Part shown: piece after piece, positions 10,930-30,388 of the stretch
Position numbering within the stretch: position 1 is the first letter of the stretch
How the letters are laid out: every line of letters starts with the position of its first letter
The notes under the pieces: model-generated
The model's input: the letters and a program-made list of their open reading frames with translations, nothing else
The model's database searches: none
Told to the model about the DNA's origin: nothing
DNA from: Achromobacter pestifer
Lineage (GTDB): Bacteria; Pseudomonadota; Gammaproteobacteria; Burkholderiales; Burkholderiaceae_B
NCBI RefSeq assembly: GCF_013267355.1
Contig: NZ_CP053985.1
Location: forward strand, 4,154,001 to 4,218,000
DNA: 64,000 bases
Direction of reading: 5' to 3'
Position numbers and translations under genes: made by a program

Positions 10930-11442
10930 TCATTTCACGCGATGGAGCTTGCTGACGGTATCGCGCGCCTGCATCAGCGCGCCCAGCTTTTCGCGGGCGC
11001 GCGACAGGCGCGACATGACCGTGCCCATCGGCACGTCCAGTATCCGGGCGGTTTCCTGATAGGACAGGTCCTCCACGCATATCAGCAACAGCACTTCCCG
11101 CTGTTCGGCGGGCAGGGCTTGCAGGCAGCGGTCCAGGTCGCGCACCTCCAGGTGGTCGGTCTGCGTGGCGCGCACCGGAGCGTCGGGCAGTTCGCCCAGG
11201 GCGGTCTGTTCGGCCCGCCGGCTGCTGGCGCGCACGCCGTCGATGAAATGGTTATGCATGATGCCGAACATCCAGGCGCGCAGCTCGCCGCGCCGCTGCC
11301 AGCGCGAATAGCGGCTCCATGCGCGCTCCAGCGTGTCCTGGACCAGGTCGTCGGCCCGGTGGGGGTCGCCCGTCAGCCCGCGGGCATAACGCCGCAGGCT
11401 GGGGATGCAGGCCAGGATCAGGGCTTCGTCTTCGGCGCGCAT
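10930..11442 (-). CDS. ECF RNA polymerase sigma factor
   Basis: 170 aa. Region 2 (about 5-75: DDLVQDTLERAW, MFGIMHNHFID) and region 4 (about 105-160: LPAEQREVLLLICVEDLSYQETARIL, GTVMSRLSRAREKL) are complete; no extra domain. It is transcribed after a small secreted protein gene (gap 30 bp) and directly before the anti-sigma gene. A candidate ECF-type promoter (11886-11914) precedes the operon, which would make the system autoregulated. Confidence 0.93.
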   Translation of the reverse strand: MRAEDEALILACIPSLRRYARGLTGDPHRADDLVQDTLERAWSRYSRWQRRGELRAWMFGIMHNHFIDGVRASSRRAEQTALGELPDAPVRATQTDHLEVRDLDRCLQALPAEQREVLLLICVEDLSYQETARILDVPMGTVMSRLSRAREKLGALMQARDTVSKLHRVK

Positions 11443-11472
11443 GGATGGCTGCGTTGGATGGCGGGCACCGTA

Positions 11473-11841
11473 TCAGGGCTTGGCGACGTGCCAGATTTCC
11501 TTGAAATTGTCGCCGGTCTTGTCGCCCGCCTTGGCGTCCTTGGCGAACGTGTACAGCGGCTTGCCCTTGCTGGCCCATTGCTTGCTGCCGTCGTCGCGGG
11601 TGATGACGGTCAGGTCGCCCATGGGCTTGGCGTCGGCGCTGGCCATGACCGGCGGCCAGATCTTGGCGCATTGGTCGTTGCAGGCGCTCTTGCCGCCGGC
11701 ATCCTTGTCGAAGGTGTAAAGCGTCATGCCGGCGCTGTTGACCAGCATGCCGTCCTGGGCCTTGACGGCCTGGGCCTGGGCGCCGGCCGAAAACAGGGCG
11801 GCGGCGGAGATGGCCAGGGCTGCGGCGATGTGTTTACGCAT
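11473..11841 (-). CDS. Secreted protein of the YX(F/W/Y)XXD-repeat (COG4315) family
   Basis: 122 aa with a clear signal peptide (cleavage after about residue 23, AQAQA). The mature part has two similar units, each with a LYTFDKD/LYTFAKD motif, and two cysteines (CNDQC). Proteins of this family are often coded beside ECF sigma factors; their biochemical role is not established. As first gene of the operon it may be the main effector or a sensor of the envelope response. The function is unknown. Confidence 0.82.
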   Translation of the reverse strand: MRKHIAAALAISAAALFSAGAQAQAVKAQDGMLVNSAGMTLYTFDKDAGGKSACNDQCAKIWPPVMASADAKPMGDLTVITRDDGSKQWASKGKPLYTFAKDAKAGDKTGDNFKEIWHVAKP

Positions 11842-12513: not shown

Positions 12514-13557
12514 TCAAGCCGCGCCGCCGTTGCGGGCGCACTCCCAGCCCAGCTCGGCCAACGGTTCCACCTTGGCGCCCATGGATAGTGCGTCGTCGGC
12601 GGCGGCGTTGCCGCTCGAGGCGCGCGCGGCAACGCCCTGCAGGATGGCGGCCATGCGGAAGAAACTGTAGGCCAGGTAGAAGCCCCAATCGGACACGCCG
12701 GCCAGCCCGCGCGCCCGGCAATACGCCGCCACGGCCTCGTCCTCGGTGGGGATGCCCAGCGCGCCGAGATCGGATCCGGCCACGCCGCGCCACAGCTGCG
12801 GCGATACGCGCCAGCACATGCAGTAATACGCCAGGTCCGCCAGCGGGTGTCCCAGCGTGGAAAGCTCCCAGTCCAGCAGGGCCAGGGCGCGGGGCTCGGT
12901 GGGGTGGAAGATCAGGTTGTCCAGCCGGAAATCGCCATGCACCAGGCGGGTTTCGTCGCTGGCGGGAATGTTGCGGGGCAGCCAGTCGATCAGCGATTCC
13001 ATGGCGGGCAGGTCGGCGGCCGGCCGGCTTTCGCGGTATTGCCGCGTCCAGCGCGAGATCTGGCGCGCGTAGTAATTGCCTGGACGGCCGTAGTTTTCCA
13101 GACCCAGGGCCACGTAGTCCAGCTCATGCAGGGCGGCAAGGACGCGGCTGGTTTCCGCGTAGATGGCGCTGCGCTCGGCCGGCTCCAGGCCCGGCAGTGC
13201 CGGGTCGACGAAGCTGCGGCCCTGCACGTAGTCCATCAGGTAAAAGGGCGTGCCGAGCAGGCTGTCGTCGGCGCAATAGTCCAGCATGCGCGGCACGGGC
13301 ACCTCGCTGCGCTCCAGCGCCCGCATGACCTGGAACTCCCGGTCGATGGCGTGCGCCGAAGGCAACAGCTTGCCGGCGGGCTGCTTGCGCAGCACGTACT
13401 GGCCGCGGGCAGTCGTCACGACGTAGGTCGGATTCGACTGGCCGCCTGCCAGACGGCGCAGCGCCACTTCCTCCGTCCGCCCGGCGTACCCCGCGCGCAC
13501 CAGATAGGCGGCCAGCGCGTCGTGGCCGGCGATCCCATCTTCCGACGCGCCCGTCAC
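12514..13557 (-). CDS. APH-fold phosphotransferase (ACAD10/11- or LvaA-type kinase)
   Basis: 347 aa from a GTG start that overlaps the stop of the acyl-CoA dehydrogenase gene (GTGA, 13557-13554). Kinase features are a GGQSNPTY nucleotide loop (38-45), Lys58, the catalytic HGDFRLDN (Asp209, Asn214) and metal-binding LLDWE (Asp229). It is an aminoglycoside-phosphotransferase-like fold, but coupling to an acyl-CoA dehydrogenase points to the kinases that phosphorylate 4-hydroxyacyl-CoAs (LvaA in levulinate use, the kinase part of ACAD10/11) rather than antibiotic resistance. The substrate is inferred. It is the last gene of the long minus-strand operon. Confidence 0.82.
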
Positions 13558-14777
13558 GATTGCGCCCCGCTTGGTTCCTGCGCCTGCCAATGCCAGAAGT
13601 CGTCGCCTTCGTCCATCAGGAATCGCGCCAGCACCATCTTGTGCACTTCCGAGGCGCCATCGACCAGCCGGGCCTGGCGCGCGTAACGGTAAATCCAGGC
13701 CAGGGCGGTATCGCGGGAATAGCCGCGCGCGCCGGTCAGCTGGATGGCGGTGTCGACCGCCTTGTGCAGCGTTTCGGAGACGACGATCTTCGCCATCGAG
13801 ACTTCCTTGCGCGCGTAGCTGCCCTGGTCCAGGGCGACGGCGGCGCGCATCGTCAGCAGGCGGCCGACCTCGATCGCCATGGCGCATTCGCCCAGCATCC
13901 ATTGCACGCCTTCGCGCTCGGCCAGCGCGGTGCCGAAGCTCTGCCGGGTCGCCACGTAGTCGCGCGCGATCGCCAGGGACCGGCGGGCCAGCCCCAGCCA
14001 GCGCATGCAATGCGTCAGCCGCGCGGGGCCCAGGCGGATCTGCGTGACCTTCAGGCCGTCGCCCACGCCGAGCAGGCGGTTCTCGTCGGGGATCTCCAGT
14101 CCGTCGAACACCAGTTCGCAATGGCCGCCGTGTTCCTCCGGGCCCATGATGGGGATGCGCCGTTCGATGCGCCAGCCGGGCTGGTCCGCGTCGAAGAGAA
14201 AGGCCGTCAGGCCCTTGCGCGGATCATCCGAAGTCTTGGCCATCAGGATGAAATGCTGCGCCACGCCCGCGCCGGTGATGAACCACTTCTTGCCATGCAC
14301 CCGCCATTTGCCGTCTTGCAGGGTGGCGGTGGTGCGCATCATCGATGGGTCGGAGCCGCTGCCCGGATGCGGCTCGGTCATGGCGAACGAGGATCGCACC
14401 TTGCCGTCCACGATGGGTTGCAGCCAACGCGCCTTCTGCGCCTCGGTGGCGACCTTCTCCAGCACCATCATGTTGCCGTCGTCGGGCGCCGCGCTATTGA
14501 ACACCACGGGTCCGAAGATCGACACGTTCATTTCTTCGTAGCAGGCCGCCATGCCGACGCGCGACAGGCCCTGGCCGCCGCGTTCGCGCGGCATCTGCAG
14601 GGCCCACAGCCCGGCTTCTTGCGCGCGGCGGCGCAGCGGCTGCAAGACTTCCTCGCGGATGTTCTCGTGTTCGTCGTAGGAGGACGGGTCCGCCTCCACC
14701 GGCAGGATATGCGTCTCGACAAAGGCCTTGATGCGCAGGCGGTAGCTTTCGATTTCTGGTGTGAGGCTGAAGTCCAT
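13554..14777 (-). CDS. Acyl-CoA dehydrogenase family protein, ACAD10/11 type
   Basis: 407 aa from ATG 14777; a TTG at 14795 overlapping the SDR stop is the alternative. [13 protein letters not shown] (131-143), WFITGAG and [18 protein letters not shown] are ACAD landmarks. At the position of the usual catalytic Glu (YEGT) the protein has Asp373 in [10 protein letters not shown], the pattern of ACAD10/11 and LvaC-like proteins (DG-x2-EVH). In that group the flavoprotein works together with a kinase to remove phosphate from a 4-phosphoacyl-CoA. The coupled kinase gene downstream supports this reading. FAD-dependent and cytoplasmic. Confidence 0.85.
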
Positions 14778-14791
14778 GTTGCGTCCCGGAG

Positions 14792-15553
14792 TCAAAGCGT
14801 GGAAACAAGATGCCCGCCGTCCACCACCAGGACCGATCCGGTCATGAACGAGGAGGCATCGGAAGCCAGCAGCAGCAGGGGAGCCGACAGCTCCCGCGCC
14901 TGCCCGAGCCGGCGCTGCGGCACGCGCCGGATCAGCGCCTGCCCCGCGTCGCTGGCGAAGAATTCGCGGTTAAGGTCGGTTTCGATGTAGCCCGGCGCCA
15001 GCGCATTGACGCGGATGCCGTGGCGCGCCCATTCCAGCGCCAGGGCTTGCGTCAGCTGGATCAGGGCGGCCTTGGAGGCGGCGTAGGCGGGCACCTGCTG
15101 GGCCACCCGCAGCCCCAGGATGGAGGCGATGTTGATGATGCTGCCGCCGCCATGCGCCTGCATATGGCGGCCGGCCGCCTGCGCCACCCGCCAGGTGCCG
15201 TTGAGGTTGACGTCGATCACGTCCATCCAGTCGGCTTCGGTGTGTTCCAGCGCCGGGCGGGCGGCGGTAATGCCGGCGTTGTTGACCAGGATGTCGATGG
15301 CGCCGCCCAGGCGCTCTGACGCGGCATCGAACAGGCCGGCGACGCTGTCGGGCTGGGTCACGTCCAGCGCGATGGCGCATGCCTGCCGGTCCGTGGCCGC
15401 CAGTTCCGCGGCCAGCTGCTCGCCGGCCTGCAGCCTGCGTCCGGCCAGGGCCACGTGCGCGCCCGCGGCGGACAGAGTGCGCGCGAACTCCTCGCCGAGT
15501 CCGCCGAAGGCGCCGGTCACCAGGGCCCGCTTGTTGCGTAGGTCCTCGAACAT
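14792..15553 (-). CDS. Short-chain dehydrogenase/reductase
   Basis: 253 aa from ATG 15553, 7 nt after GGAG; a GTG two codons earlier lies too close to that site. It is a classical SDR: TGAFGGLG cofactor loop (13-20), NNAG (91-94), Ser144 and Tyr157-x3-Lys161, with DVTQ after strand 3. In the operon it precedes the acyl-CoA dehydrogenase/kinase pair. An oxo-acyl-CoA or hydroxyacyl-CoA redox step, as done by LvaD in levulinate catabolism, is plausible but not proven. Confidence 0.87.
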   Translation of the reverse strand: MFEDLRNKRALVTGAFGGLGEEFARTLSAAGAHVALAGRRLQAGEQLAAELAATDRQACAIALDVTQPDSVAGLFDAASERLGGAIDILVNNAGITAARPALEHTEADWMDVIDVNLNGTWRVAQAAGRHMQAHGGGSIINIASILGLRVAQQVPAYAASKAALIQLTQALALEWARHGIRVNALAPGYIETDLNREFFASDAGQALIRRVPQRRLGQARELSAPLLLLASDASSFMTGSVLVVDGGHLVSTL

Positions 15554-15587
15554 GCTCACTCTCCTTCGGGCGATGCCGCCACGGGGG

Positions 15588-15980
15588 TCATGCAGGCTTG
15601 TACGCCGACGCTTCCACTTCGATCAGCCACTCGGGCCGCGCCAGGGCCCGCACCACGACCAGCGTCGCGGCGGGGCGGGCCTCGCCCAGATAGGCCAGCC
15701 TGACGGGACCGAGCAGGGGCAGCTGGCTTTCGTCCGTGATGTAGGTCACGACCTTGACCAGATCGCCGGCATGCATCCCCGCGGCCTCCAGCATGGCCTG
15801 GATGTTGCGCCAGGCGGCATGGGCCTGGGCTTCGAAGCCTGGCGCGAGCACGCCCTCGGACGATACTCCCACCTGGCCGGCGATGTGCAGCCAGCGCCCG
15901 GCGCCTTCGGTCAGCACGCCCTGGCTGTAGGGGCCCAACGGGGCGCAGACGCCCGCGGGATTGAGTGGTTGGCCTGCCAT
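15588..15980 (-). CDS. Rid-family protein (RidA-like, catalytic Arg absent)
   Basis: 130 aa, chorismate-mutase-like trimer fold. Landmarks are GPYSQGV (16-22), the HIAGQVG strand and VTYITDE. RidA deaminases carry an arginine in a PARS motif near residue 105; here the segment reads RPAATLVVV, so that Arg is replaced by Ala. The protein therefore looks like a Rid4-7-type member whose chemistry is undefined, rather than an imine deaminase. Its place in the operon suggests it handles a reactive intermediate of the pathway. Confidence 0.8.
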   Translation of the reverse strand: MAGQPLNPAGVCAPLGPYSQGVLTEGAGRWLHIAGQVGVSSEGVLAPGFEAQAHAAWRNIQAMLEAAGMHAGDLVKVVTYITDESQLPLLGPVRLAYLGEARPAATLVVVRALARPEWLIEVEASAYKPA

Positions 15981-15999
15981 GGGGACTCCTCGTGAAAGA

Positions 16000-16872
16000 T
16001 CAGGCCCGGCCCGCGCCTGACAGCAGCAGATCGAGCGTCTTGTTGAACAGCGGATAGCCGTCGCCGGCGAAATCGGTCAGCAGGTCGAAATGGTTGCGCT
16101 GCGGTACCACCAGGTTTTCGACCGCGTGGCCGTGGCTGGCGCAATGTTGCGAGAAATCCCGGCTTTGCCCGCGAAAACCCTCGGTTTCCAGGGCGCCGGC
16201 CGCGAACACCATGGGGACTTCGTACAGCGTGGCTTGCTGGTACAGCCCCAGGCGGCGGGCTTCGGCCGCGCTCATGTGGAGATCGCGGTTGATGGAAGTG
16301 CGCAGCAACGGTTCCAGATCGAACAGCCCGCTCAGCCCCACATAGCCGCGTATCCTGCCCGCCAGGGCGGGCACCAGGTCGCGGCGCAGCGCGCGGGCGG
16401 CCATGTGCCCGCCGGCGGAGTGGCCGGACAGCACGATGCGGCTGGCGTCGTAGCCGTGGCGCTCGCCTTGCGTGGTCAGCCAGGACACGGCGGCGCAGGC
16501 CTCGTCGACGATCTCGGAGACGCTCGCGTGCGGCGCCAGCGTGTAGTTGGGCAGCGCCACGGCCACGCCGCGCGCCAGGTATTCGTCGGCGATGAAGGAG
16601 AAGCCGTGCTTGTCCAGCGCGCGCCAATAGCCGCCGTGGATGAAGACCAGCAGCGGCGGCGCCGGCACGTGGCTGGGAACGAACAGGTCCAACACGCTCG
16701 AGGGCCGTTCGCCGAAGCGCAGGTCCAGGCGCGCTTCGCGCCGGCTGCGCGTGTCCGCGCTGCGGCGCGCGTAGGTAAAGTAGATTTCCTCGCGTTCGGG
16801 ATGCCGGGCGCGCAGGTTGTACTGCGCTTCCTGCTCCGGATCGATCGCCTGCTCCTGGGAAGAAAACATCAT
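16000..16872 (-). CDS. Alpha/beta hydrolase of the kynurenine formamidase-like (HGGxW) group
   Basis: 290 aa. HGGYW (79-83) forms the oxyanion hole, GHSAGG (150-155) carries nucleophile Ser152, and His261 in RNHFDL completes the triad. HGGxW hydrolases of this size include arylformamidases, which cleave N-formyl groups, and also esterases. No tryptophan catabolic genes are nearby, so a kynurenine role is unlikely. In the island it may cleave an amide, formamide or ester. Start chosen at the first of two adjacent ATG codons after AGGTGA. Confidence 0.8.
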   Translation of the reverse strand: MMFSSQEQAIDPEQEAQYNLRARHPEREEIYFTYARRSADTRSRREARLDLRFGERPSSVLDLFVPSHVPAPPLLVFIHGGYWRALDKHGFSFIADEYLARGVAVALPNYTLAPHASVSEIVDEACAAVSWLTTQGERHGYDASRIVLSGHSAGGHMAARALRRDLVPALAGRIRGYVGLSGLFDLEPLLRTSINRDLHMSAAEARRLGLYQQATLYEVPMVFAAGALETEGFRGQSRDFSQHCASHGHAVENLVVPQRNHFDLLTDFAGDGYPLFNKTLDLLLSGAGRA

Positions 16873-16890
16873 CGCTTCACCTGTCTCCTG

Positions 16891-17604
16891 TCAGGCGCCC
16901 AGATAGGCAGCCTGTACCCGTGTATCGTCGCGCAGCGCCTGGGCGCTGCCCGAATACGCCACTCGGCCTTCCTGCAGCACGTAACCGTAGTCCGCGGCGC
17001 TCAAGGTCAGCTTGGCGTTCTGTTCGGCGATGAACAGCGTCAGCCCTTCCTGCTTGAGCCGCCGCAGCGACAGGAAAATATCCTTTACGACCAGGGGCGC
17101 CAAGCCCATGGAAGGTTCATCCAGCATCAGCAGGCGCGGGCTGCTCATCAGCGCCCGGCCTATCGCGACCATCTGCTGTTCGCCGCCGGACAGCGTTCCC
17201 GCCGCCTGCCGGGCGCGCTCGGACAGCCGCGGGAACAGGTCCAGGACGAATTCGAGGTTGCGGCGGAACTCCGCCTGGCGGCGCTGCTTCAGCAGCTTGT
17301 AGCCGCCCATCTCCAGGTTTTCGCTGACCGACAGCGGCGCGAACACGCGCCGGCCTTCGGGCACCAGGACGATGCCGCGGTCGACGATGCGGTCCGCGGG
17401 CAGCGCCTCTATCGCTTCTCCTTCGAAGCGCACGCTGCCGCGCAGGGGCCGCAGCAGGCCGCTCAGGCTGCGCATGACCGTGGTCTTGCCGGCGCCGTTG
17501 GCGCCGAGCAGGCAACCTATCTGCCCGGCCGGGATTTCCAGGCTGGCTTCGCGCAGCACGTCGCCAGCGCCATACGAGGCGCACAGATTGGTGATCTCAA
17601 GCAT
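16891..17604 (-). CDS. Branched-chain-type ABC transporter ATPase (LivF-like)
   Basis: 237 aa. Walker A GANGAGKTT (34-42), signature LSGGEQQ (138-144) and Walker B LLMLDEP (158-164) are intact, followed by the GLAP segment typical of LivF. Together with the LivG-like ATPase it energises import by the LivH/LivM-like permeases coded just upstream. The start overlaps the end of the LivG-like gene by 8 bp. The ligand is unknown; see the binding protein at 22217-23398. Confidence 0.92.
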   Translation of the reverse strand: MLEITNLCASYGAGDVLREASLEIPAGQIGCLLGANGAGKTTVMRSLSGLLRPLRGSVRFEGEAIEALPADRIVDRGIVLVPEGRRVFAPLSVSENLEMGGYKLLKQRRQAEFRRNLEFVLDLFPRLSERARQAAGTLSGGEQQMVAIGRALMSSPRLLMLDEPSMGLAPLVVKDIFLSLRRLKQEGLTLFIAEQNAKLTLSAADYGYVLQEGRVAYSGSAQALRDDTRVQAAYLGA

Positions 17605-18376
17605 CGGGCATGTCCTCCCCGAGATAGGCCTTCAGGACCAGGGGATCGACGCGCACCGCGTCGGCCTGGCCTTCGGCGATCTTGCGGCCGTAGTTCAGGA
17701 CCAGGATGTCGTCGCACAGCTGCATGACGAAGCTCATGTTGTGCTCGACCAGCAGCACGGTCACCCCGCTGGCGTTCACTTCGCGTATGACCTGGGCCAC
17801 CTGCGCCACTTCGGCATGCGGCACGCCCGCGACCGGTTCGTCCAGCAGCAGCAGCACAGGGTCGGCGGCCAGGGCGCGGGCGATTTCCAGGATCTTGGCC
17901 TGGCCGAAACTCAGGTCCGCGGCCAACACGTCGGCGTGGCGGGCCAGGTGCAGCTGTTCCAGCCGCTGCATCGCGATGTCGCGCATCTGACGCTCGTCGC
18001 GGCGCTGGCGGGGCGTGCGCAGCATGCAGGCCCACAGGCCGGAACCGAAGCGCGCATGGCAGCCGACCATGACGTTTTCCATTACCGTCAGGTCCTTGAA
18101 GATCTGCAGGTTCTGGAAGGTGCGGGCGATGCCCAGCCTGACGCGCTGGTGCGGCGGCAGGCCCTGCACCGAGCGGCCGCGCAAGCGCACGTCGCCGTTG
18201 CCCGGCTGCAGCAGCCCCGCGACGATGTTGAACAAGGTGCTCTTGCCCGCGCCGTTGGGGCCGATAAGGCCCTTGATCTGGCCTTGCTTCAGGTCGAAGG
18301 ACAGGTCGGCAAGCGCGGCCAGCCCGCCGAAATTGATGCCCAGATCCCGCACCGACAGGAAATCGTGATCAGCCAT
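17597..18376 (-). CDS. Branched-chain-type ABC transporter ATPase (LivG-like)
   Basis: 259 aa. Walker A GPNGAGKST (39-47) and Walker B LLLLDEP (175-181) are intact. The signature reads LSFGQ (155-159) instead of LSYGQ/LSGGQ, and the following segment is VAGVPHAE instead of the usual AAGMN-type sequence, both mild variants. The start overlaps the end of the LivM-like gene by 8 bp. Partner of the LivF-like ATPase. Confidence 0.92.
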   Translation of the reverse strand: MADHDFLSVRDLGINFGGLAALADLSFDLKQGQIKGLIGPNGAGKSTLFNIVAGLLQPGNGDVRLRGRSVQGLPPHQRVRLGIARTFQNLQIFKDLTVMENVMVGCHARFGSGLWACMLRTPRQRRDERQMRDIAMQRLEQLHLARHADVLAADLSFGQAKILEIARALAADPVLLLLDEPVAGVPHAEVAQVAQVIREVNASGVTVLLVEHNMSFVMQLCDDILVLNYGRKIAEGQADAVRVDPLVLKAYLGEDMPDA

Positions 18377-19385
18377 GGCGCACCTTTCCCTTCGTTGCCG
18401 CCACCGGGGATGCCGGCAGACGGGCTGAACGCCGGCACAGCCGCTGCGCCAGTCCCGCCAGTCCCCCGGGGAAGAACATCAGGACCAGGATCATGCCCAG
18501 CCCGAACAGCAGCAGCTCGACGTCATGGAAGGCGCGCAGCAGTTCCGGCACCGCGGTGTAGACCAACGCGCCGAACAGCGGTCCCCAGTACTTGCCCCAG
18601 CCGCCGACGGCAACCATGACCAGCAGTAGCACCGATGCGGAGAAGCTGAAGGTCTCGGGCGACGCGAACTGGTTGAAGTGGACGTAGAACGTGCCCGCCA
18701 GGGCCGCGACCGCGGCGCAGAGCACGAATACCGCCACCTTGAGCGCATAGGTGTTGATGCCCAGGCTGGCCGCGCCGACCTCGCTGCCGGCCACGCTGAT
18801 CATGGCGCGGCCGATGCGCGAGCGGGTCAGGTTGAGGAAACCCCACATCAGCAGCAGGCCCGCGGCCCAGGCCAGGTAGAAGAAGCGCCGGTCGGTATCG
18901 AAGGCATAGCCCGCGACCGTGATGGATTCGACCCCCGACAGGCCGTTGGGGCCGCCGGTAAAATCCACCAGTTCGACGAACAGCACCGACAGGATGGCGT
19001 TGAATCCCAGCGTTGCCATCGCCAGGTAGTGACCCCGCAGCCGCAGCACGGGCAGGGCGATCAACAGCGCTGCCGTGCTTGCGACCGCCAGCGCGGCCGG
19101 AATGCTGACGAGCGCGGGAATGCCGTACTTGGCCGACAAGGCGCCGCTGACGTAGGCGCCCAGGCCGAAGAAGCCGGCCTGGCACATGGAGATTTGTCCG
19201 CAGTAGCCCATCAGCAAGTTGAGGCTGGCGATCAGCATCAGGTTGATGCTGAACGTCACCGCCAGGCCCACGGCATAGCTGTTCGGCGCCACCAGCGGAA
19301 ACAGGAGGAAAAGGCCCCACAGCGCCAGCAGGATGCGCAGGTCGCGGCGCGCGCCGTCCCCGGGCGGATGGATTTCGGATTTCAT
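18369..19385 (-). CDS. Branched-chain-type ABC transporter permease (LivM-like)
   Basis: 338 aa from ATG 19385, preceded by AAGGGGG; a GTG two codons earlier is possible. It has about ten hydrophobic helices and the LivM landmarks LMGYCGQISMCQAGFFGLGAY-like (broken here: MGYCGQIS, FFGLGAY), TGGPNGLSG and VGGWGKYWGP. It forms the membrane channel with the LivH-like permease coded 11 bp upstream. The C-terminal tail is Arg-rich and ends ATKGKVRHG. Confidence 0.92.
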   Translation of the reverse strand: MKSEIHPPGDGARRDLRILLALWGLFLLFPLVAPNSYAVGLAVTFSINLMLIASLNLLMGYCGQISMCQAGFFGLGAYVSGALSAKYGIPALVSIPAALAVASTAALLIALPVLRLRGHYLAMATLGFNAILSVLFVELVDFTGGPNGLSGVESITVAGYAFDTDRRFFYLAWAAGLLLMWGFLNLTRSRIGRAMISVAGSEVGAASLGINTYALKVAVFVLCAAVAALAGTFYVHFNQFASPETFSFSASVLLLVMVAVGGWGKYWGPLFGALVYTAVPELLRAFHDVELLLFGLGMILVLMFFPGGLAGLAQRLCRRSARLPASPVAATKGKVRHG

Positions 19386-19396
19386 CGTCACCCCCT

Positions 19397-20281
19397 TCAG
19401 ACCTTGTTGATTTCGGCTTTGCCCAGCAAGCCCTGGGGACGGTAGAACAGCACCATCAGCAGCACGATGAAGGACAGCGCGTCCTTGTATTGCGAGGAAA
19501 TCAGGCCGCCTCCCAGCGCCTCGATCACACCCAGCAGCACGCCGCCGAGCAAAGCGCCCTGCAGGCTGCCCAGGCCGCCCAGCATGGCCGCGCTGAAGCC
19601 TTTGAAGCCGAGCATGGTGCCGTGGTCATAGGAAGTGAAGGTCAGCGGCGCGATGATCACGCCCGCGATGCCGCCGGCCAGCGCCGCCAGCACGAAGGCC
19701 ACCGTCACCGATCGCCGCACGTTGATGCCGACCAGGGCGGCGGCGTCGCGGTCGATGGCGGTGGCGCGCAGGGTCTTGCCCAGCAGTGTGCGTTCGAAGA
19801 AGAAATGCGTGCCCAGCATGAAGACCAGCGCCACCCCCATCACCCAGAAGCTTTGCGGCGGAATCTGCGCGCCGGCCAGCGGCACCGGGGTGTCGCCCGA
19901 AAACGCGGGATAGCCCATGGGGGTCTTGCCCAGCCCCAGCATCACCAGGCTCTTGGTGCAGATGGCCAGGCCGATGCTGAGCAGCGTCACCAGCAGGGGC
20001 GCGGGCTTTTTCAGCGGATGGATCACCAGGCGTTCGGACACGCCGCCCGCCAGGGCCACCAGGGCTACCGCGGCCAGGCAGGATAGCCATAGCGGCAGCT
20101 CGGCGACCGCGTAACAGGCGGCCGCCACCATGCCGCCCATCATGACCCATTCGCCCTGGGCGAAGTTGATGGCGTCGGTGCTCTTGAAGATGACGTTGAA
20201 CCCCACCGCCACGATGGCGTAGATGCTGCCGGTGGTGATTCCGGCGACCAGCAGTTGGATGATTTGCGCGGACATGTCCAT
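19397..20281 (-). CDS. Branched-chain-type ABC transporter permease (LivH-like)
   Basis: 294 aa from ATG 20281 (MDMSAQIIQL); a second ATG lies two codons in. Landmarks are GSIYAIVAVGFNVIF, NFAQGEWVMMGG, LRATAIDRDAA, LAGGIAGVI and GGLGSLQGALLGG. It follows the two di-iron protein genes in the operon, so the importer is split by enzyme genes from its own binding protein (22217). This order indicates that uptake and oxidation act on the same compound. Confidence 0.92.
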   Translation of the reverse strand: MDMSAQIIQLLVAGITTGSIYAIVAVGFNVIFKSTDAINFAQGEWVMMGGMVAAACYAVAELPLWLSCLAAVALVALAGGVSERLVIHPLKKPAPLLVTLLSIGLAICTKSLVMLGLGKTPMGYPAFSGDTPVPLAGAQIPPQSFWVMGVALVFMLGTHFFFERTLLGKTLRATAIDRDAAALVGINVRRSVTVAFVLAALAGGIAGVIIAPLTFTSYDHGTMLGFKGFSAAMLGGLGSLQGALLGGVLLGVIEALGGGLISSQYKDALSFIVLLMVLFYRPQGLLGKAEINKV

Positions 20282-20301
20282 GGCAGGGCCCCGGCGCCGG
20301 C

Positions 20302-21207
20302 TCAGTTGGGCCGGCGCGTGGTAAGCGCGATGCCCGGCAATTCGACGCCGAACTCGGCCAGGCGCCGCGTCACCGTCTCCAGGTACGACCACAGGACCTC
20401 GTACTCCCGGTCGGCGGACGCGGCGCCCAGGCCGGCCTCGGCCGTCAGCGCGTTGGCCCGGCTTTCGGGGCCATCGGGTTCCGCCAGCCAGGGGCAGTGA
20501 TAGCCGCGCAGTTCGACGTCGTTCAGATAGCCCGACACGGCCTGGGCCACGGCGGCGCGGTCGGCTTCGGACCAGGCGGCGGCGCGTTCGGCGACGTAGA
20601 GCCAGCCGAAGGTGGCGTGGCGCTCCTTGGCCTGGACGCACTGTTCCAGGATGCGGCGCGCCACCGGTTCCCTGGCGTTTTCCAGGTAGGCCCGGAACAG
20701 TTCCAGCTCCAGTCCGTCTTCCACTGCGGCATGGGTGGTGAAGAAGGCGTCGGCATTGCAGGCGGCATCCAGCACCTGGCGATGCCGGCATTGGTTGAAG
20801 ATGGCTTCCTGCTGCGGGCTGGGCGGGCGGTTCAGGTAGCCGCCCAGCAGCGTGGCGTAGCGATGGAAGCACTCGATCTGCCAGGCTTCCTCGGTGTTGC
20901 GCACGGTCAGGAAGTACTTGGGGTCGGACTCGCGGCCGCTCTCCAGGCACAGGCGCACCAGCAGCGCCGGCGTTTCGCTCAGGCCCGCGTATTCCACCCA
21001 GGCGCGGCGGCTCCAGGTCAGGCGGGCCGCGTCGCGGACCCGCGCATCGAGCGCGCCGAGGTCCAGGCTGGCCCAGGGAATGTCCGTTTCAGGCGCCCAG
21101 CGCTGCTGTTTGCCGGTTTCGTACAGTTCGCGGATCGAGGTGATGGATTGCTTGAGCGTCAGCGGGAAGCGGCGCTCAACGGGAATTCTGGTCGTAGCTG
21201 CGTTCAT
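20302..21207 (-). CDS. Ferritin-like protein, paralogue with degenerate di-iron site
   Basis: 301 aa, clearly related to its neighbour (21223-22152) over the full length: IRELYE...QRWAPETDIPW, TWSRRAWVEYAGLSETPAL, LLGGYL. The metal motifs are damaged. The first EExxH reads EEAWQ (Glu107, Gln110), and the second E-x2-H reads KERH (Lys194, His197). The middle Glu163 remains. Loss of one His and one Glu makes iron-centre formation unlikely, so it may be an inactive partner subunit, as seen in alpha/beta di-iron oxygenases. Homology by eye; function unknown. Confidence 0.72.
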   Translation of the reverse strand: MNAATTRIPVERRFPLTLKQSITSIRELYETGKQQRWAPETDIPWASLDLGALDARVRDAARLTWSRRAWVEYAGLSETPALLVRLCLESGRESDPKYFLTVRNTEEAWQIECFHRYATLLGGYLNRPPSPQQEAIFNQCRHRQVLDAACNADAFFTTHAAVEDGLELELFRAYLENAREPVARRILEQCVQAKERHATFGWLYVAERAAAWSEADRAAVAQAVSGYLNDVELRGYHCPWLAEPDGPESRANALTAEAGLGAASADREYEVLWSYLETVTRRLAEFGVELPGIALTTRRPN

Positions 21208-21222
21208 GGCGGGTCCTCGGGT

Positions 21223-22152
21223 TCAGAATTCGCCGATCTTCGGGTGGTGCAGCAGGGGCAGGCGCACGCCCCAGGGCTCCATCTGGCGGCGCACGCGCTG
21301 CACTGTTTCAACGAACAGGGGCTTTTCCAGTTCCTCGACCGTGGAGCCCAGGCCGGCTTCCCAGGTGAGCCGGTCCACTTCCATTTCGGCGCGCGAGGCC
21401 GGGTTGTCGGGCGCCAGCCATGCGCTGTGATAGCCGTTGAGCTCGACCTTTTCCATCATGTTGATCACGGCGTTTTCCACCACCTTGATTTCGGCGGCGG
21501 ACATCTGCGGAATGCGGTGGTCGAGGAAGCGCCAGCCGAACGCGCAGTGCCGCACCTCGTCGCGCATGATGCGGGCGCAGATCTGCTTGGCGACGGGGTC
21601 GCGGGTGATTTCGACCAGGTGGCGGAAGACGTCGAACGCGATTTCCTCGGCGGCGCAGACCAGCGCGGCGAGGATTGCCTCGACCGACACCTCGGGGTCC
21701 AGCGCCATCTTGCGCACGCCGTGCGTGGCGACGGAGCCCTGGTAGGCGGCCTGGGCCGGCTGCTCCATGTAGCCGCCGAGCGCTTCGGCCATGCGGTAGC
21801 AGGCTTCGGCGTGGCGGCTTTCTTCCTGCGAGCGGATGGTGAAGAACAGGCGCAGGTCGGGCTCGCACTTGTCGTGGCAGAAGCGGATCTGCAAGGCCGG
21901 GCTTTCCGAGATGGCGCCGTACTCGCTCCAGGCGCGGCGGCTCCAGTACTGGCGGGCCGCGTAGCGCTGCTCGGGCGTGTACTGCGAGGCGTCGAAAAGA
22001 TGCCAGTCGATGTCGGTGCGCGGGTCCCACTGCTTGACCGTTGCCAGGTGGTAGAGATCTCGGATCTTGGGGATCCGGGTATCCAGATCCAGCGGAAAGA
22101 TGCTTTCAGGATCGTCGAGGATCGTACGCGGCTCGGCGCTTGCTACGTTCAT
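21223..22152 (-). CDS. Ferritin-like di-iron protein, probable oxygenase
   Basis: 309 aa from ATG 22152, 7 nt after GGGAG. A four-helix di-iron fold is indicated by Glu111-x2-His114 (EESRH), Glu169/170 (AAEEIAF) and Glu199-x2-His202 (DEVRH). The N-terminal KIRDLYHLATVKQWDPRTD-like stretch is shared with ferritin-like N-oxygenase/AurF-type families, but I cannot assign a subfamily. It follows the ABC binding-protein gene and precedes its degenerate paralogue. Candidate for the first oxidative attack on the imported compound; the electron donor is not encoded nearby. Confidence 0.75.
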   Translation of the reverse strand: MNVASAEPRTILDDPESIFPLDLDTRIPKIRDLYHLATVKQWDPRTDIDWHLFDASQYTPEQRYAARQYWSRRAWSEYGAISESPALQIRFCHDKCEPDLRLFFTIRSQEESRHAEACYRMAEALGGYMEQPAQAAYQGSVATHGVRKMALDPEVSVEAILAALVCAAEEIAFDVFRHLVEITRDPVAKQICARIMRDEVRHCAFGWRFLDHRIPQMSAAEIKVVENAVINMMEKVELNGYHSAWLAPDNPASRAEMEVDRLTWEAGLGSTVEELEKPLFVETVQRVRRQMEPWGVRLPLLHHPKIGEF

Positions 22153-22216
22153 GACTGCACTCCCAGGTTTGCCGCGCCGGCGGCGCGCGTGAGTGGAGGT
22201 TGCGGAGATGGACTGC

Positions 22217-23398
22217 TTACTTGTAGTCGGCCAGCCGGAACTGTCCGTCCCGGTAGCCCAGCATGACGATGTCGTCCTTGGCCAGGCCGGAGTGGCGTTG
22301 GGGCGAGAAATTGAAGACCCCGCCCACACCCTGGTAACCGGTGATGGCGGCCAGCTGTTCGCGGGTCTTCTCCTTGTCGCCGCCGCTCTTTTCCAGCGCG
22401 GTGCGGGCCAGCATCATGGCGTCGTAGGTCTGGGCCACGAACTGATTGGGCTTGCGCTTGTAGCGGGCCTCGAAGCGCTTGCTGAGGTCCATGATGCGGG
22501 TCTTGATGGGATCGGCGTCGGGCAGGTCCTGGCCCACCGGGAACTTGACGCTGACCAGCAGCAGGTCCTTGACCGAGTCGCCCGCCAGCTTCATGTAGCG
22601 CTGGTCGACGAAGCCATAGCTATGCACCAGCGTCAGCTTGTCCAGGCCCAGCTGCTGCGCCTGCTTGATGAAAACCACGCCGGCCGGGGTGACGGTCCAG
22701 CAGATGATGGCCTGCACCGACGCGTTCTTGATGCGGGTGAGTTGCGGCGTCAGGTCGGTGTCGGCGGGGTTGAAGGATTCGTAGGTGATGTCGATGCCGC
22801 GCTTGGCGGCCAGCCGCTTCATTTGTTCGACGGCGCTCTGGCCGAAGCCGCTGTTGTCGGCCAGCAGGGCGGCGCGCTTGATGCCCTTCTTGTCGAAGTA
22901 GTCCAGCACCCGGTCGATCACCTGGTCGTCGTCCACGGTGCTCTTGAACACGTACTTGCGTTCCGCCACCGGCATCACGATCTGCATCGAACCCTCGGTG
23001 GAAATGAAGGGCGTGGCGGCCTTGTCCACCATCGGCACCATGGCCATGGCGATGCCGCTCATGTTGCCGCCGCCGACGATGATGTCCACCTTGTCCTGGG
23101 ACAGCAGCCGCTTGGTGGCGTTGATCGCCTTGGCGGTCTGGCTTTCGGCGTCGTAGAACACCCATTCGACGTTCTTGCCGCCGATGCCTCCGGCGGCGTT
23201 GATGTCGTCGATCGCCATTTCCATGCCGGCCTTCATGTCTTCGCCGAGAAAGGCGGCGGGACCGGTCACGGACAGGATGGAGCCTATCCGCACCGCATCC
23301 TGCGCGCCGGCCGCGTGCATGCCCAGCATCAGCGCGGCGGCCGGAAGCGCAATGGCCGCGCGCCGCGAGAATTCCAGAAACGTCTTTATGCAAGTCAT
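22217..23398 (-). CDS. ABC transporter substrate-binding protein (LivJ/amide-type)
   Basis: 393 aa from ATG 23398, with AGGAG 7 nt before it; an upstream in-frame ATG is less likely because the signal peptide begins here (cleavage near residue 33, AGAQ). It has a type I periplasmic binding fold: GSILSVTGPAAFLGE, AIDDINAAGGIGGK, LLSQDKVDIIVGGGN. It resembles binders for branched-chain amino acids, amides and aromatic acids; the ligand cannot be read from sequence. It is the first gene of the long operon running to 12514 and provides the specificity of the importer. Confidence 0.9.
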   Translation of the reverse strand: MTCIKTFLEFSRRAAIALPAAALMLGMHAAGAQDAVRIGSILSVTGPAAFLGEDMKAGMEMAIDDINAAGGIGGKNVEWVFYDAESQTAKAINATKRLLSQDKVDIIVGGGNMSGIAMAMVPMVDKAATPFISTEGSMQIVMPVAERKYVFKSTVDDDQVIDRVLDYFDKKGIKRAALLADNSGFGQSAVEQMKRLAAKRGIDITYESFNPADTDLTPQLTRIKNASVQAIICWTVTPAGVVFIKQAQQLGLDKLTLVHSYGFVDQRYMKLAGDSVKDLLLVSVKFPVGQDLPDADPIKTRIMDLSKRFEARYKRKPNQFVAQTYDAMMLARTALEKSGGDKEKTREQLAAITGYQGVGGVFNFSPQRHSGLAKDDIVMLGYRDGQFRLADYK

Positions 23399-23471
23399 GG
23401 TGCTACTCCTGTGCCTGATGCGGGATTTGAGGGGTGCAGCAACTTCCACGAACAGCGAAAACGTCGGCGGT

Positions 23472-24317
23472 CTAGTTCTCCGTCGCGCCGGGTGGGTTGC
23501 GGAATTCGAGCGAGTCCGACACCTGGTCCGTTTTGCCTGCGCCGTTCTGCAGCGGCACGCGCACCGAGTACCGGACCTGGTCCGCGCGATAGTGGGAAAA
23601 ACCGGACATGACCGGCTGGTCCTGCGTGTCGAAATACACCAGGTGCCGTGTCAGGATGGGATCTCCGGGCAGCAGGCTGAGGTAGTCGGCATGCTCGGCC
23701 TGCACCGCGCCGCCCTCGATCTTGAGGTTGCCGTAGGCCAGTTCGACCTGGTGGCCGATCAACTCCAGCAGGGAGCCGGCCTCGACCTGGGTGGCGTCGA
23801 TGCGGGGGATGCGGTCGACGCGCACGTAGCGGTAGTCGATGGAAATCGGTACCAGCTGGACCGTGCGCAGGCGCAGGATGCTCCAGACCGGCGTGCCCGG
23901 CGTCACGTCCAACTGGCGCGCCACCGCGGCGGTGGCGGGTTCCTGGGCACAGTGCAGCACGCGCAGGCTCAGGGGGCGGCCGTGCGCGGACCACTGGTCG
24001 ATGAAGTCCATGGCCGGGCTGAACTGCTCGTCGATCTTGGGGGCGCAGACGAAGGTCCCGGAGCCGCGGACCCGCCGCAGATAGCCCTCGTCCACCAGTT
24101 CCTGGATGGCTTGGCGGACCGTCATGCGGCTGACGTCGAATTGTTCGCTCAGCTCGTGGTCGGTATGAAAGCGGTCGCTTTCCTGCTGCCAGTTCAGGAT
24201 CATCATCAGCACGCGCCGCTTGATCTGCACATAGAGCGGCAGAGGGGAGTCCCGGTCCAGCGCCACGGGGCTGCTGGAGACGGGGGACTCGCTGCGGACG
24301 TTCGTAAGGGTAGACAT
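23472..24317 (-). CDS. GntR-family regulator, HutC/UTRA subfamily
   Basis: 281 aa. Winged helix (26-93: LYVQIKRRVL, LSEQFDVSRMTVRQAIQELVDEGYL, RGSGTFV) and a C-terminal UTRA ligand domain (about 100-265: RVLHCAQEPA, ILRLRTV, LPGDPILTRHLVYFD). It sits first on the minus strand, 73 bp upstream of the importer operon, and next to an AT-rich divergent region with a 16-bp palindrome. It probably represses the island and responds to its substrate or an early product. Confidence 0.9.
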   Translation of the reverse strand: MSTLTNVRSESPVSSSPVALDRDSPLPLYVQIKRRVLMMILNWQQESDRFHTDHELSEQFDVSRMTVRQAIQELVDEGYLRRVRGSGTFVCAPKIDEQFSPAMDFIDQWSAHGRPLSLRVLHCAQEPATAAVARQLDVTPGTPVWSILRLRTVQLVPISIDYRYVRVDRIPRIDATQVEAGSLLELIGHQVELAYGNLKIEGGAVQAEHADYLSLLPGDPILTRHLVYFDTQDQPVMSGFSHYRADQVRYSVRVPLQNGAGKTDQVSDSLEFRNPPGATEN

Positions 24318-24337
24318 GACAGCTGGATTCCGGAATA

Positions 24338-24375
24338 TGTATATAGGATTTGTATATTTGTCTAGTTAACTAGAC
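24338..24375. promoter_or_regulatory. AT-rich operator region: TGTATAT direct repeat and GTCTAGTTAACTAGAC palindrome
   Basis: Within the 101-bp divergent gap, TGTATAT occurs at 24338-24344 and 24351-24357 (13-bp period), and a perfect 16-bp palindrome occupies 24360-24375. HutC-type regulators bind palindromes with GT/TA/AC spacing, so the palindrome is the likely operator. TATGAT and TATATT at 24378-24388 could be -10 elements for the plus-strand genes. On the minus strand TAGACA followed by TATACA may be a promoter for the regulator. The assignment to the neighbouring regulator is inferred. Confidence 0.6.
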
Positions 24376-24418
24376 TTTATGATATATTGATTTCGAAAGT
24401 CAAGTACGGATTAGCGAT

Positions 24419-25708
24419 ATGAATATTTCTACGCTCGACCTTGCGCTGGCGCTTGCGCCCCACAGCCTGGATGCCGTTCTGTCCTTTGATCAGCCCGCCT
24501 CGCTGGACCGGGCGGACGTGCTCATATGGAATCCGGCCGGCCTGTACCCGGTGCTGGAAGCGGCCTGCGAACGCGCCGATCCGCCGGTGCTGGGCGTGGG
24601 CGCGTCGGAATGGCTGCTGGCCACCAGCCGCCACTGGCGCGAGCAATTCAAGCGCCTGCTGGGCGCGGGCGGCACGCTGGTGGTGCTGGTGCCCGCGCCG
24701 CGCACGGTGGGCGTGCATACCCTGCAAGACATTCTTCCCTACGACTGGTCCGATCCGCTCTGGCCGCGAACGGTGCGCAGCCAGCCGATGGACGGCGATG
24801 CGCTGCCGCGCCAGGCGGGCGAGCCTTTCCGCACGCTCTTCACCGAAGCCGCGCGCTGTTTCCAGCCCTGCGCGACGCTGGCCGCGGCGCCGGGGGCGGG
24901 CATCCTCGAGGACGGCCAGGGGATGACGTTGGCGAGCTACGCCAGCGAACCGCCGGGCCGCCTGCTGCTGCTTCCGGCGCTGGCCTCGGATATGGCGCAG
25001 GACGAGGCGGGCGCGGCGCTGTTCCTGCGGGAGTTGCGCCGCTGCATCGAGCGCCTGGGCCAGCGCAGCGGCGTGCGCCTGGCGGGGTGGCTGGACCTGC
25101 AGCGCGGCCCGGCAGACGAGCAATTGCATGCCCGCCGCGCGCAGTGCCTGCGCGAGCGCCATGCGCTAGACCTGGAGCTGCAGGAACTGGATCGCGCCAT
25201 GGCCGAGCGGGACTTCTTCAAGCAGCTGCTTGCCGGCGAAGGCCTGGGCGCGGGGCTGGCGGCCGCGGAAGTCTTCCGCCGCAAGAGCGTGCCGGTGCAT
25301 GCGGATTGGGTCGAGAAAGACCTGCACATCGTCGAACTCGACCAGCGCAACCTGCTGCTCAAGGTGCGCCTGGCGGATGAGCCGCTGGACGCCGCGGCCC
25401 TGCGTCGGCTGGAAGAAGCCCGCTTGCGGGTGGCGGATTATTTCTCCCGGCCCACCTCCATCCTGGTCGCGGATTGCGCCGACAACGCCTTGCCTCCGTC
25501 GGCGCGCGCGCCGCGCCGGCAGGCCGTGCTGGAAGGCCTGGACGATGCCTATGTGCTGAATGGACTGCACCTGTATGGCTGGCATCTGCAAACTTCCGGC
25601 GACAGTCCCGACCGCCTGCTGCAGCGCTTGATGCAGGCGGACGCGGACCTGAGCGATTCCCTGCTGCGCGCGACGCTGCGCGGCCTGTCCCCGCTAGCCG
25701 GCGCCTGA
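24419..25708 (+). CDS. Unrecognised cytoplasmic protein with central coiled coil
   Basis: 429 aa, no signal peptide or membrane helix. I do not recognise the family. Residues 1-225 look like an alpha/beta domain (VLIWNPAGLYPVLE, GGTLVVLVPAP, GRLLLLPAL), loosely similar to class I glutamine amidotransferase/ThuA-like folds but without a visible catalytic Cys-His pair. Residues 234-268 are strongly helical and charged (coiled coil). Residues 295-355 form a compact domain (HIVELDQRNLLLKVRL, SILVADCADNALP). It is first in the divergent operon with an acyl-CoA synthetase and shares the palindromic control region, so it belongs to the island. It could be regulatory or a structural partner. Confidence 0.75.
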   Translation: MNISTLDLALALAPHSLDAVLSFDQPASLDRADVLIWNPAGLYPVLEAACERADPPVLGVGASEWLLATSRHWREQFKRLLGAGGTLVVLVPAPRTVGVHTLQDILPYDWSDPLWPRTVRSQPMDGDALPRQAGEPFRTLFTEAARCFQPCATLAAAPGAGILEDGQGMTLASYASEPPGRLLLLPALASDMAQDEAGAALFLRELRRCIERLGQRSGVRLAGWLDLQRGPADEQLHARRAQCLRERHALDLELQELDRAMAERDFFKQLLAGEGLGAGLAAAEVFRRKSVPVHADWVEKDLHIVELDQRNLLLKVRLADEPLDAAALRRLEEARLRVADYFSRPTSILVADCADNALPPSARAPRRQAVLEGLDDAYVLNGLHLYGWHLQTSGDSPDRLLQRLMQADADLSDSLLRATLRGLSPLAGA

Positions 25709-25744
25709 CGGGCGCGGTGAGCGTTTCGCTTCTGTGAGACTCCG

Positions 25745-27382
25745 ATGCCCGCCGACACCCCCGACCATCATGTGCAGGATATCGAACGCAACAGCGCCAA
25801 CCATCTGGCGCTTTCGCCGCTGACGTTCATCGAGCGCGCGGCGAAGGTCTATCCGCAGCGCACCGCCATCGTCCACGGCGCGCTGCGCCAGAGCTGGCGC
25901 GAGACCTATGCGCGCTGCCGCCGGCTGGCCAGCGGGCTGGCGCGCCTGGGCGTGCGGCCCGGCGATACGGTGGCCGTGATGGCGCCCAACATCCCGGCGT
26001 TGTACGAGGCCCACTTCGGCGTCGCCATGGCGGGCGCGGTGCTCAATGCCCTGAACACCAGGCTGGACGCGGAAACGCTGTCCTTCATCCTGGAGCACGG
26101 CGCGGCGGCGGTGCTGCTGACGGACCGCGAGTACGCGCCCGTCATGGCGCAGGCGCTGGCCAAGACCCGCAGGCGGATCCGGGTGGTGGACATCGACGAT
26201 CCCGAATACGGCGGGCCGGGCGAGCTGATCGGGGAAATGAACTACGAAACGCTGCTGGCGTCGGGCGATGCAGCGGCCGAGTTTTCCTGGCCCGCGGACG
26301 AATGGCAATCGCTGTGCCTGAACTACACCTCCGGCACCACCGGCAGCCCCAAGGGCGTGCTGTACCACCATCGCGGCGCCTATCTGAATGCGATAGGCAA
26401 CGCCTTGGCCTGCGATATGCGCCAGCATGCCGTGTACCTCTGGACCTTGCCGATGTTCCACTGCAATGGCTGGAGCTTTCCCTGGACCATCGCGCTATTG
26501 GCGGGAACCAATGTCTGCCTGCGGCGGGTCGAGGCCGGCGCCGTCTTCGACGCCATCCAGGCGCATGGGGTCGATTATTTCTGCGCCGCGCCGGTGGTGC
26601 TGGGCATGCTCATCAACAGTCCGCCGGAGATCAAGCGGCGCGCCGTCCGGCCGGTGCAGGTGCTTACCGGCGGCTCCCCGCCTCCGGCCGCCGTCATCGC
26701 GGCGATGGACGAGCTGGGCATAGACGTTACGCACCTGTATGGCCTGACCGAGAGCTATGGCCCATCCATCAGTTGCGCCTGGCATGAGGCCTGGAGCGAT
26801 CTGCCTCTGGATGAACAGGCTGCGCTGAAGGCCCGCATCGGCGTGCGCAAGCACACGATGGAACAGGTCCGCGTGCTGGATCCCGCCACACTGGACCCCG
26901 TGCCGCCGGACGGCGTCACCGTGGGCGAGATCATGATGCGCGGCAATACGCTCATGAAGGGCTATCTGAAGAACCCGCAGGCCACGGCCGAGGCCTTCGC
27001 CGGAGGCTGGTTCCACACCGGCGATCTGGGCGTGGTGCACCCCGACGGCTACATGCAGATCAAGGATCGCGCCAAGGACATCGTCATTTCCGGCGGCGAG
27101 AACATCTCGACGGTCGAGGTCGAGGATGCCTTGTACGCGCATCCCGCCGTGCTGGAAGCGGCGGTGGTGGCGCGGCCGGATGCCAAGTGGGGCGAGACGC
27201 CTTGCGCCTTCGTCACGCTGAAGGACGGCTGCGCCGCGACCGCGGACGAACTGGCCGGCTTCTGCCGGGGACGCCTGGCGGGCTTCAAGGTGCCGCGCAC
27301 CTTTGTGTTCGGCCCGCTGCCCAAGACCGCCACGGGCAAGATCCAGAAGTACCTGCTGCGCGAACAGGCGCGGCAGCTGTGA
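25745..27382 (+). CDS. Acyl-CoA synthetase (AMP-forming, medium-chain/AlkK- or LvaE-like)
   Basis: 545 aa. [11 protein letters not shown] (194-204) is the AMP-binding loop, YGLTESYGP motif A5, [15 protein letters not shown] with the hinge, [12 protein letters not shown], and catalytic Lys532 in TATGKIQKY. The [10 protein letters not shown] segment is typical of ligases for short to medium or branched acids. It activates an acid to its CoA thioester, feeding the SDR, kinase and acyl-CoA dehydrogenase of the opposite operon. It is coded 36 bp after the unrecognised 429-aa protein. Confidence 0.9.
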
Positions 27383-30358: not shown

Positions 30359-30388
30359 GCGCGGCACCTCGTCGAATGCGAAAACCTA

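Follow-up and report, generated by a model that had tools for sequence, protein, structure and literature searches.

Which compound is taken up and degraded by a gene island in which a complete importer, two ferritin-like proteins, a hydrolase and a Rid protein stand beside a kinase/dehydrogenase block, and do these genes form one unit at all? The island occupies positions 12514 to 27382 of a 64,000-nucleotide stretch of Achromobacter pestifer DNA (NZ_CP053985.1, positions 4,154,001 to 4,218,000), hereafter the window, whose genome comprises 7.18 Mb in two contigs. A first-pass annotation had named 15 genes here and treated them as one island; all 15 were found at the coordinates it gave, and each gene type that it named was confirmed by Pfam and NCBIfam scans (Table 1). 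What we see is a genuine and rare catabolic operon under regulation, made up of two modules, and its two halves were found not to be co-conserved as a single set. Module 1 comprises the regulator, the importer, the two ferritin-like proteins (here FER1 and FER2), the hydrolase and often the Rid protein, and module 2 comprises a short-chain dehydrogenase/reductase (SDR), an ACAD10/11-type flavoprotein, an APH-type kinase and a ligase. We tentatively propose, as a quite possible reading that still falls short of probable, that a nitrogen-containing compound is imported, oxidised and cut at an amide bond, and that in Achromobacter the product then enters a 4-hydroxyacyl-CoA route.

Two modules with separate distributions

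Behind the regulator, twelve genes follow on the minus strand in the order binding protein, FER2, FER1, LivH, LivM, LivG, LivF, hydrolase, Rid, SDR, ACAD and kinase. Since the gaps between them are at most 73 bases they look like one operon, from which two further genes, for the uncharacterised protein and for the synthetase, run divergently. The Pfam and NCBIfam scans identified a complete Liv/HAAT ATP-binding cassette (ABC) importer, with a binding protein, two permeases and two ATPases.

For comparison we used 52 loci, 49 of them from a scan of a genome collection with a FER2 alignment and three added, namely a plasmid record (L053) and two loci from family genomes (L069 and L073, the FER2 match of the latter being only 38%). 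Protein matches were accepted at E up to 1e-10 over at least 35% of the query, and all counts across these loci are minima, some contigs ending inside the cassette. Relatives of the regulator and of the binding protein were found in 35 loci each, of the LivH-like permease in 36, of the hydrolase in 33 and of Rid in 25. The order regulator, binding protein, FER2, FER1, LivHMGF, hydrolase, Rid is kept from Achromobacter to Azospirillum and Xanthobacter, and in Bradyrhizobium (L029) it is kept as far as the hydrolase, without Rid. This gene order recurs in Burkholderiales and Alphaproteobacteria, and an order shared across classes exceeds chance; the importer genes are thus co-conserved with those for oxidation and hydrolysis, as had been supposed. 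The uncharacterised gene was matched in 18 loci, the synthetase in eight (four of them Achromobacter) and the kinase in five (again four of them Achromobacter), and the exact gene set, whose conservation the first-pass annotation had proposed to check, is not conserved.

FER2 itself is rare. It was found in two of 399 Burkholderiales genomes, the window's included (E up to 1e-60), and in one of 398 Pseudomonadota genomes, the window's own, at most the best five candidates per genome being scored in both scans; six of 101 family genomes carry it, again with the window's included and with one of the six at 38% only. The window's FER2 is 98-100% identical to the copies in four Achromobacter species. 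A plasmid collection gave six matching records, one of them at 60-80% identity, and the stretch taken from that record came without annotated features. One family genome made of a single contig has module 1 at G795 C1:413000-432500 (L069) and might offer genetics a cleaner host.

Module 2 follows another pattern. Relatives of the kinase were counted in 55 of 200 Burkholderiales genomes and close relatives of the module 2 dehydrogenase in 36 of 151 family genomes, the window's included in both counts. Beside the dehydrogenase in 29 distinct other family loci (L104 and L106-L134, L104 and L109 being the same place) we noticed an SDR relative in 28, a kinase-type gene in 28 and both in 27; ten of the kinase-type genes are of the window's type (63-68% identity) and 18 match at 25-32%. 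The order SDR, ACAD, kinase-type gene is retained in other Alcaligenaceae, SDR, ACAD, kinase and ligase stand together in an Achromobacter relative that lacks FER2 (G138), and genomes lacking the ferritin-like gene commonly carry relatives of the kinase and of the SDR-dehydrogenase pair. Because the module 2 block distributes separately, the complete set of genes turned up, within the loci compared, in Achromobacter alone. As judged from these gene neighbourhoods, the island is made of two separable modules, module 2 having apparently docked onto module 1 in Achromobacter.

It may be asked whether the modules are then unrelated and mere neighbours in Achromobacter, module 1 handling a nitrogen compound and module 2 handling 4-oxo or 4-hydroxy acids from elsewhere. 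The 47 loci in which module 1 has no kinase, the 27 family loci that keep SDR and kinase-type gene by the dehydrogenase and the block in G138 all speak for such a view, which we nevertheless consider unlikely, if by no means negligible, as Rid and SDR share a strand with 34 bases between them and are adjacent in four Achromobacter species, and separate ACAD10/11-type genes stand near FER in Comamonas badia (L018) and in a Burkholderiaceae locus of a second FER clade (L041). Identity is 81% between these two genes and 42% with that of the window; L018 also has SDR and kinase relatives, and L041 a ligase relative. The only loci of the 52 in which a six-frame signature search found the ACAD10/11 motif pair were L018, L041 and the four from Achromobacter. 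Across 200 Burkholderiales genomes we counted at least 23 relatives of the L018/L041 gene, with that of the window among them (E up to 1e-80, at most the best nine candidates per genome), from which we estimate a chance expectation of well under one such gene in the FER flanks, assuming genomes of about 4 Mb, in a post hoc test that leaves looser ACAD10/11 relatives outside the count. Four other family genomes have a close FER2/FER1 pair (G795, G803, G814 and G823), and three of them have the module 2 dehydrogenase at unlinked places.

A ferritin-like pair with one di-iron ligand set

FER2 carries the six-ligand pattern of ferritin-like di-iron oxygenases (E, ExxH, E, ExxH) as E77, E111xxH114, E169 and E199xxH202, and the set is complete in 52 of 52 aligned rows. 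In FER1, which is 36% identical to FER2, the six ligands are complete in none of 47 rows, position 199 being K, Y or R; the alignment leaves out matches spanning less than about 200 residues and so holds no row for L051 and no FER1 row for L021. Of the 'di-iron pair' announced by the first-pass annotation, one protein, FER2, has the di-iron ligand set and its partner FER1 is without it, on which count we rejected the idea that both are di-iron enzymes.

In the N-oxygenases among ferritin-like di-iron oxygenases, PMC12154687 places a seventh histidine four residues before the last glutamate ligand. At this point, position 195, FER2 has isoleucine in 41 rows and valine in 11, so that the histidine is absent from all 52. 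With AurF, CmlI, VlmB and Dob3 (PMC12154687) FER2 has in common the fold and the six metal ligands, whereas it differs from them in the missing histidine, in the neighbouring paralogue without ligands and in a setting that looks catabolic and not biosynthetic. Since the histidine is absent, we downgraded the view of FER2/FER1 as an N-oxygenase of the AurF type with an amine as its substrate, the hydrolase and Rid clearing the N-oxidised products, and hold it to be improbable.

The predicted structure of FER2 is ferritin-like and its Foldseek neighbours include di-iron enzymes. Also among the rows are 4iit and 4ii4, which we take to be Paa monooxygenase structures. Searching solved sequences with a FER2 profile turned up weak matches only, AurF was not among the 50 rows of a 1000-chain structural comparison (which excludes nothing), and FER1 was without a match in the Pfam scan. 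In phenylacetyl-CoA monooxygenase a di-iron subunit, PaaA, is held beside a ligand-less paralogue, PaaC, and FER2 and FER1 would make a pair of the same kind. On the other hand, the Pfam and NCBIfam scans found no reductase, further subunit or other Paa-like gene among the operon genes, and the importer suggests that the substrate is a free compound and not a CoA ester. Taken from its residues, FER2/FER1 appears to be a new-looking oxygenase of one di-iron subunit and one pseudo-subunit; no characterised member of this conserved pair was found. If right, this would give the pair a function and bring a catabolic enzyme into a di-iron class that the literature found describes for biosynthesis.

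A short form, FER2, FER1 and hydrolase, is present in four metagenome genomes (L019, L020, L023 and L032), two of them with the regulator and two of the four contigs being under 8 kb. In the alphaproteobacterial metagenome genomes L020 and L023 two FER2 genes in tandem accompany one FER1 and the hydrolase, and both FER2 copies keep every ligand. Two FER1-FER2 pairs are actinobacterial, L048 near a relative of the acyl-CoA synthetase (39%) and L050 near a class-III aminotransferase, and these neighbours suggest other substrates for the FER family.

The tree of FER2 (which omits one weak L049 paralogue and L073) unites L039, L040, L041, L043 and L049 in one clade, of which L044, a short contig from the L043 genome, is also a member. 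Their neighbours form a second cassette type with varying sets of a xanthine-dehydrogenase-like molybdenum hydroxylase, a UbiD-type decarboxylase, an enzyme like AHL lactonases, Rid and Liv genes; the family scans were run on the L041 members, all of which score below the NCBIfam equivalog cut-offs. Xanthine-dehydrogenase-like molybdenum hydroxylases often act on N-heterocycles, and the presence of one here is consistent with an N-heterocyclic substrate and does not prove it.

Probable amide hydrolysis and the Rid protein

Against solved relatives the hydrolase matched a putative esterase (2pbl, E 3.1e-34), 'Lipase 1' (9n8r, 1.5e-32) and a kynurenine formamidase (4e11, 1.1e-17), so that its closest solved relatives are not formamidases. 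Its HGGYW and GHSAG motifs align with 4e11, both active-site motifs being covered. In four loci without the hydrolase (L022, L024, L046 and L053) the position downstream of FER is occupied by an amidase-family gene, assigned by PF01425 in L022 and L024 and by similarity in L046 and L053. The hydrolase in 33 of the 52 loci and the amidase-family gene in four never occur together (Fisher p 0.014, the loci being related and not independent). Because the one gene replaces the other in four loci and never accompanies it, amide cleavage is favoured and the formamidase-like hydrolase is probably an amide hydrolase, in which form the hydrolysis step proposed earlier gains weight.

We also weighed a substrate that is a non-nitrogenous aromatic or an ester, in which case the hydrolase would be an esterase and Rid would clear side-product imines only. 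The nearest solved relatives of the binding protein, 3sg0 and 4dqd, whose ligands are presumably aromatic acids, the esterase and lipase among the best hydrolase matches and an HSL-type hydrolase in ten of the 52 loci, which in L038 stands without the formamidase-like gene, all lean this way; set against the amidase-family replacement and the Rid relatives in 25 loci, they leave this alternative improbable. The Rid protein carries the PF01042 domain; in RidA the catalytic arginine is R105. The Rut pyrimidine-degradation operon combines an oxygenase, an amide hydrolase and a Rid protein, the same logic as here, and the island differs from it in the class of its oxygenase and in its importer.

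The kinase/dehydrogenase block

The kinase has 3dxp as its best solved match, followed by ACAD11, and its HGDFRLDN motif aligns with the catalytic D220 and N225 of ACAD11. The dehydrogenase is identical to ACAD11 in the alignment at R626, H634, R637 and D753, the first three being counted in the alignment and D753 being placed through the A* mutant structure 8v3v, which reads N there. PMC12440821 highlights D220, N225, R626, H634, R637 and D753 for ACAD10/11 chemistry. By alignment, then, the block appears to carry the residues important for 4-hydroxyacyl-CoA/4-phosphoacyl-CoA chemistry, which bears out the kinase and ACAD10/11-type logic of the first-pass annotation; of its wider pathway logic, the co-conservation of the import, oxidation and hydrolysis genes stands as well, and the unity of the gene set does not.

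With the lva operon and ACAD10/ACAD11 (PMC12440821 and PMC11342911) the island has in common a kinase, an ACAD with the catalytic Asp and the counterparts of R626, H634 and R637, an SDR and a ligase, a likeness judged by aligned residues. It differs from the lva operon in having no DUF779 (LvaB-type) gene in the operon and in being coupled to an importer/oxygenase module. The only DUF779 gene of the genome lies at G000 C2:2306608, about 1.9 Mb from the operon, and no relatives of the compared window genes were found in the 15-kb stretch around it (L055). As the kinase also has no second match in the genome (E up to 0.001), an lva operon elsewhere in this genome was rejected. Human ACAD10 and ACAD11 are not known to have an LvaB-type partner.

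A single operator-like palindrome

Between the divergent units lies a perfect palindrome, GTCTAGTTAACTAGAC, at 24360-24375, the only match in the genome with at most one mismatch, where a reversed control pattern gave five per strand. In the 9,100 bases that surround regulator starts, a relaxed form of the pattern has 18 matches, against 11 in 651,996 bases elsewhere, an enrichment that is partly circular, the pattern having been built after part of the loci had been viewed and four loci being near-copies. Of 35 loci, 17 have related operator-like sites upstream of their regulator, and the initial operator scan also returned many unrelated palindromes. Upstream of the L069 regulator we noticed the palindrome GTCTAGCTAACTAGAC. 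Judged by its position and uniqueness, the window's palindrome is a putative operator, to which the HutC-type regulator would bind. A single operator-like site makes the inducer, and hence the substrate, findable by reporter screening.

Proposed pathway

We infer the reactions, their order, the nitrogen in the substrate and the serial action of the two modules as follows. The Liv-type ABC importer would take up a nitrogen-containing compound, which FER2, a di-iron oxygenase held by the ligand-less FER1, would oxidise with O2 to an amide-containing product, candidates being an enamide with an N-acyl or N-formyl group or a hydroxylated lactam. At the next step the formamidase-like hydrolase would split the C-N bond, and Rid would convert the released enamine or imine to a carbonyl and ammonia. 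In Achromobacter the resulting 4-oxo acid may be activated by the acyl-CoA synthetase and reduced by the SDR to a 4-hydroxyacyl-CoA, which the kinase would phosphorylate and the ACAD10/11-type enzyme turn into an enoyl-CoA ready for beta-oxidation, on the model of levulinate degradation, with the HutC-type regulator acting at the operator between the divergent units. If right, this would show how bacteria join a block for 4-hydroxyacyl-CoA chemistry to a new front end.

In a more specific version, FER2/FER1 would be a new two-subunit ferritin-like monooxygenase hydroxylating the carbon beside the nitrogen of a lactam or pyrrole-type ring after its import; the ring would open to a 4-oxo amide, from which the hydrolase or amidase would free the 4-oxo acid, Rid would clear cyclic imines and the ACAD10/11-type module would burn the 4-oxo acid. 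We regard this version as distinctly unlikely; if true, it would be an undescribed route of N-heterocycle degradation feeding the 4-hydroxyacyl-CoA pathway.

Several observations weigh against the proposed pathway as a whole. The Pfam matches of FER2, to DUF455 and AurF, stay below cut-off, and because ribonucleotide reductase R2 and R2lox proteins make up the ranking Foldseek rows, its fold alone gives no pointer to a small-molecule oxygenase; nor did the Pfam and NCBIfam scans find an electron-donor gene among the operon genes. The hydrolase scores higher against the putative esterase and the lipase than against kynurenine formamidase, and its swap with the amidase is confined to four loci at two places of the FER2 tree parted by a branch of 84/93 support, for which a single origin is possible. 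Neither hydrolase nor amidase was found in 15 of the 52 loci (several of them cut contigs and six of the second cassette type), and Rid has no match in 27. The kinase being absent near FER in 47 loci, its link with module 1 may be accidental.

No described pathway with this gene set was found in the literature searched, most subscription journals lying outside the search, and a search on the idea of a homarine pathway yielded nothing. A table in PMC6974649 lists induced ferritin-like genes, and the accessible part of that source gave no sign of the cassette.

Gene layout and neighbouring genes

The features of the island are collected in Table 1. The open reading frame (ORF) starts first listed were probably too early for FER2, LivH and the kinase, whose starts were moved to 22152, 20281 and 13557, respectively.

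Table 1. Features of the island, in positions of the window
Feature	Position	Strand	Evidence
APH-type kinase, module 2	12514..13557	-	PF01636 E 1.3e-54; ACAD10/11 kinase group
ACAD10/11-type flavoprotein, module 2	13554..14777	-	Best solved relatives are ACAD11 structures
SDR, module 2, putative 4-oxoacyl-CoA reductase	14792..15553	-	Family scan
Rid-family protein, module 1, putative imine/enamine deaminase	15588..15980	-	PF01042 E 6.4e-21
Alpha/beta hydrolase, formamidase-like, module 1, putative amide hydrolase	16000..16872	-	HGGYW and GHSAG motifs
LivF-type ATPase	16891..17604	-	ABC_tran; synteny
LivG-type ATPase	17597..18376	-	ABC_tran; synteny
LivM-type permease	18369..19391	-	BPD_transp_2; synteny
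LivH-type permease	19397..20281	-	BPD_transp_2; LivH-like match in 36/52 loci
FER1, ferritin-like partner without metal-ligand set	20302..21207	-	36% paralogue of FER2
FER2, ferritin-like, complete di-iron ligand set	21223..22152	-	Structure model and alignment
Liv-type periplasmic binding protein	22217..23398	-	PF13458 (Peripla_BP_6) E 3e-63; nearest solved 3sg0, 4dqd
GntR/HutC-type regulator with UTRA domain	23472..24317	-	Family scan
Operator-like palindrome GTCTAGTTAACTAGAC	24360..24375	.	Genome pattern scan
Uncharacterised protein: GATase1/ThuA-like part, helical linker, PD-(D/E)XK-like part	24419..25708	+	
Acyl-CoA synthetase, AMP-binding, PRK08162 family	25745..27382	+	Above cut-off

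The uncharacterised protein gave no Pfam or NCBIfam match, and its GATase-like and restriction-endonuclease-like parts are both apparently without catalytic residues; in the 18 FER loci that have a relative of it, the gene runs divergent from the regulator there too.

On one side of the island lie genes for a UrtA-type binding protein (2246-3499, minus strand), an allophanate hydrolase (3648-5687) and a urea carboxylase (5732-9364), all over the NCBIfam cut-offs, which by family appear to be a urea uptake and use set, whose substrate would be urea or guanidine. An extracytoplasmic function (ECF)-type sigma factor beside a small secreted-repeat protein occupies 10930-11841, between the urea genes and the island. 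On the other side, DUF1501 and DUF1800 genes with partly overlapping ORFs adjoin the island at 27405-30367, as they do in the four Achromobacter loci.

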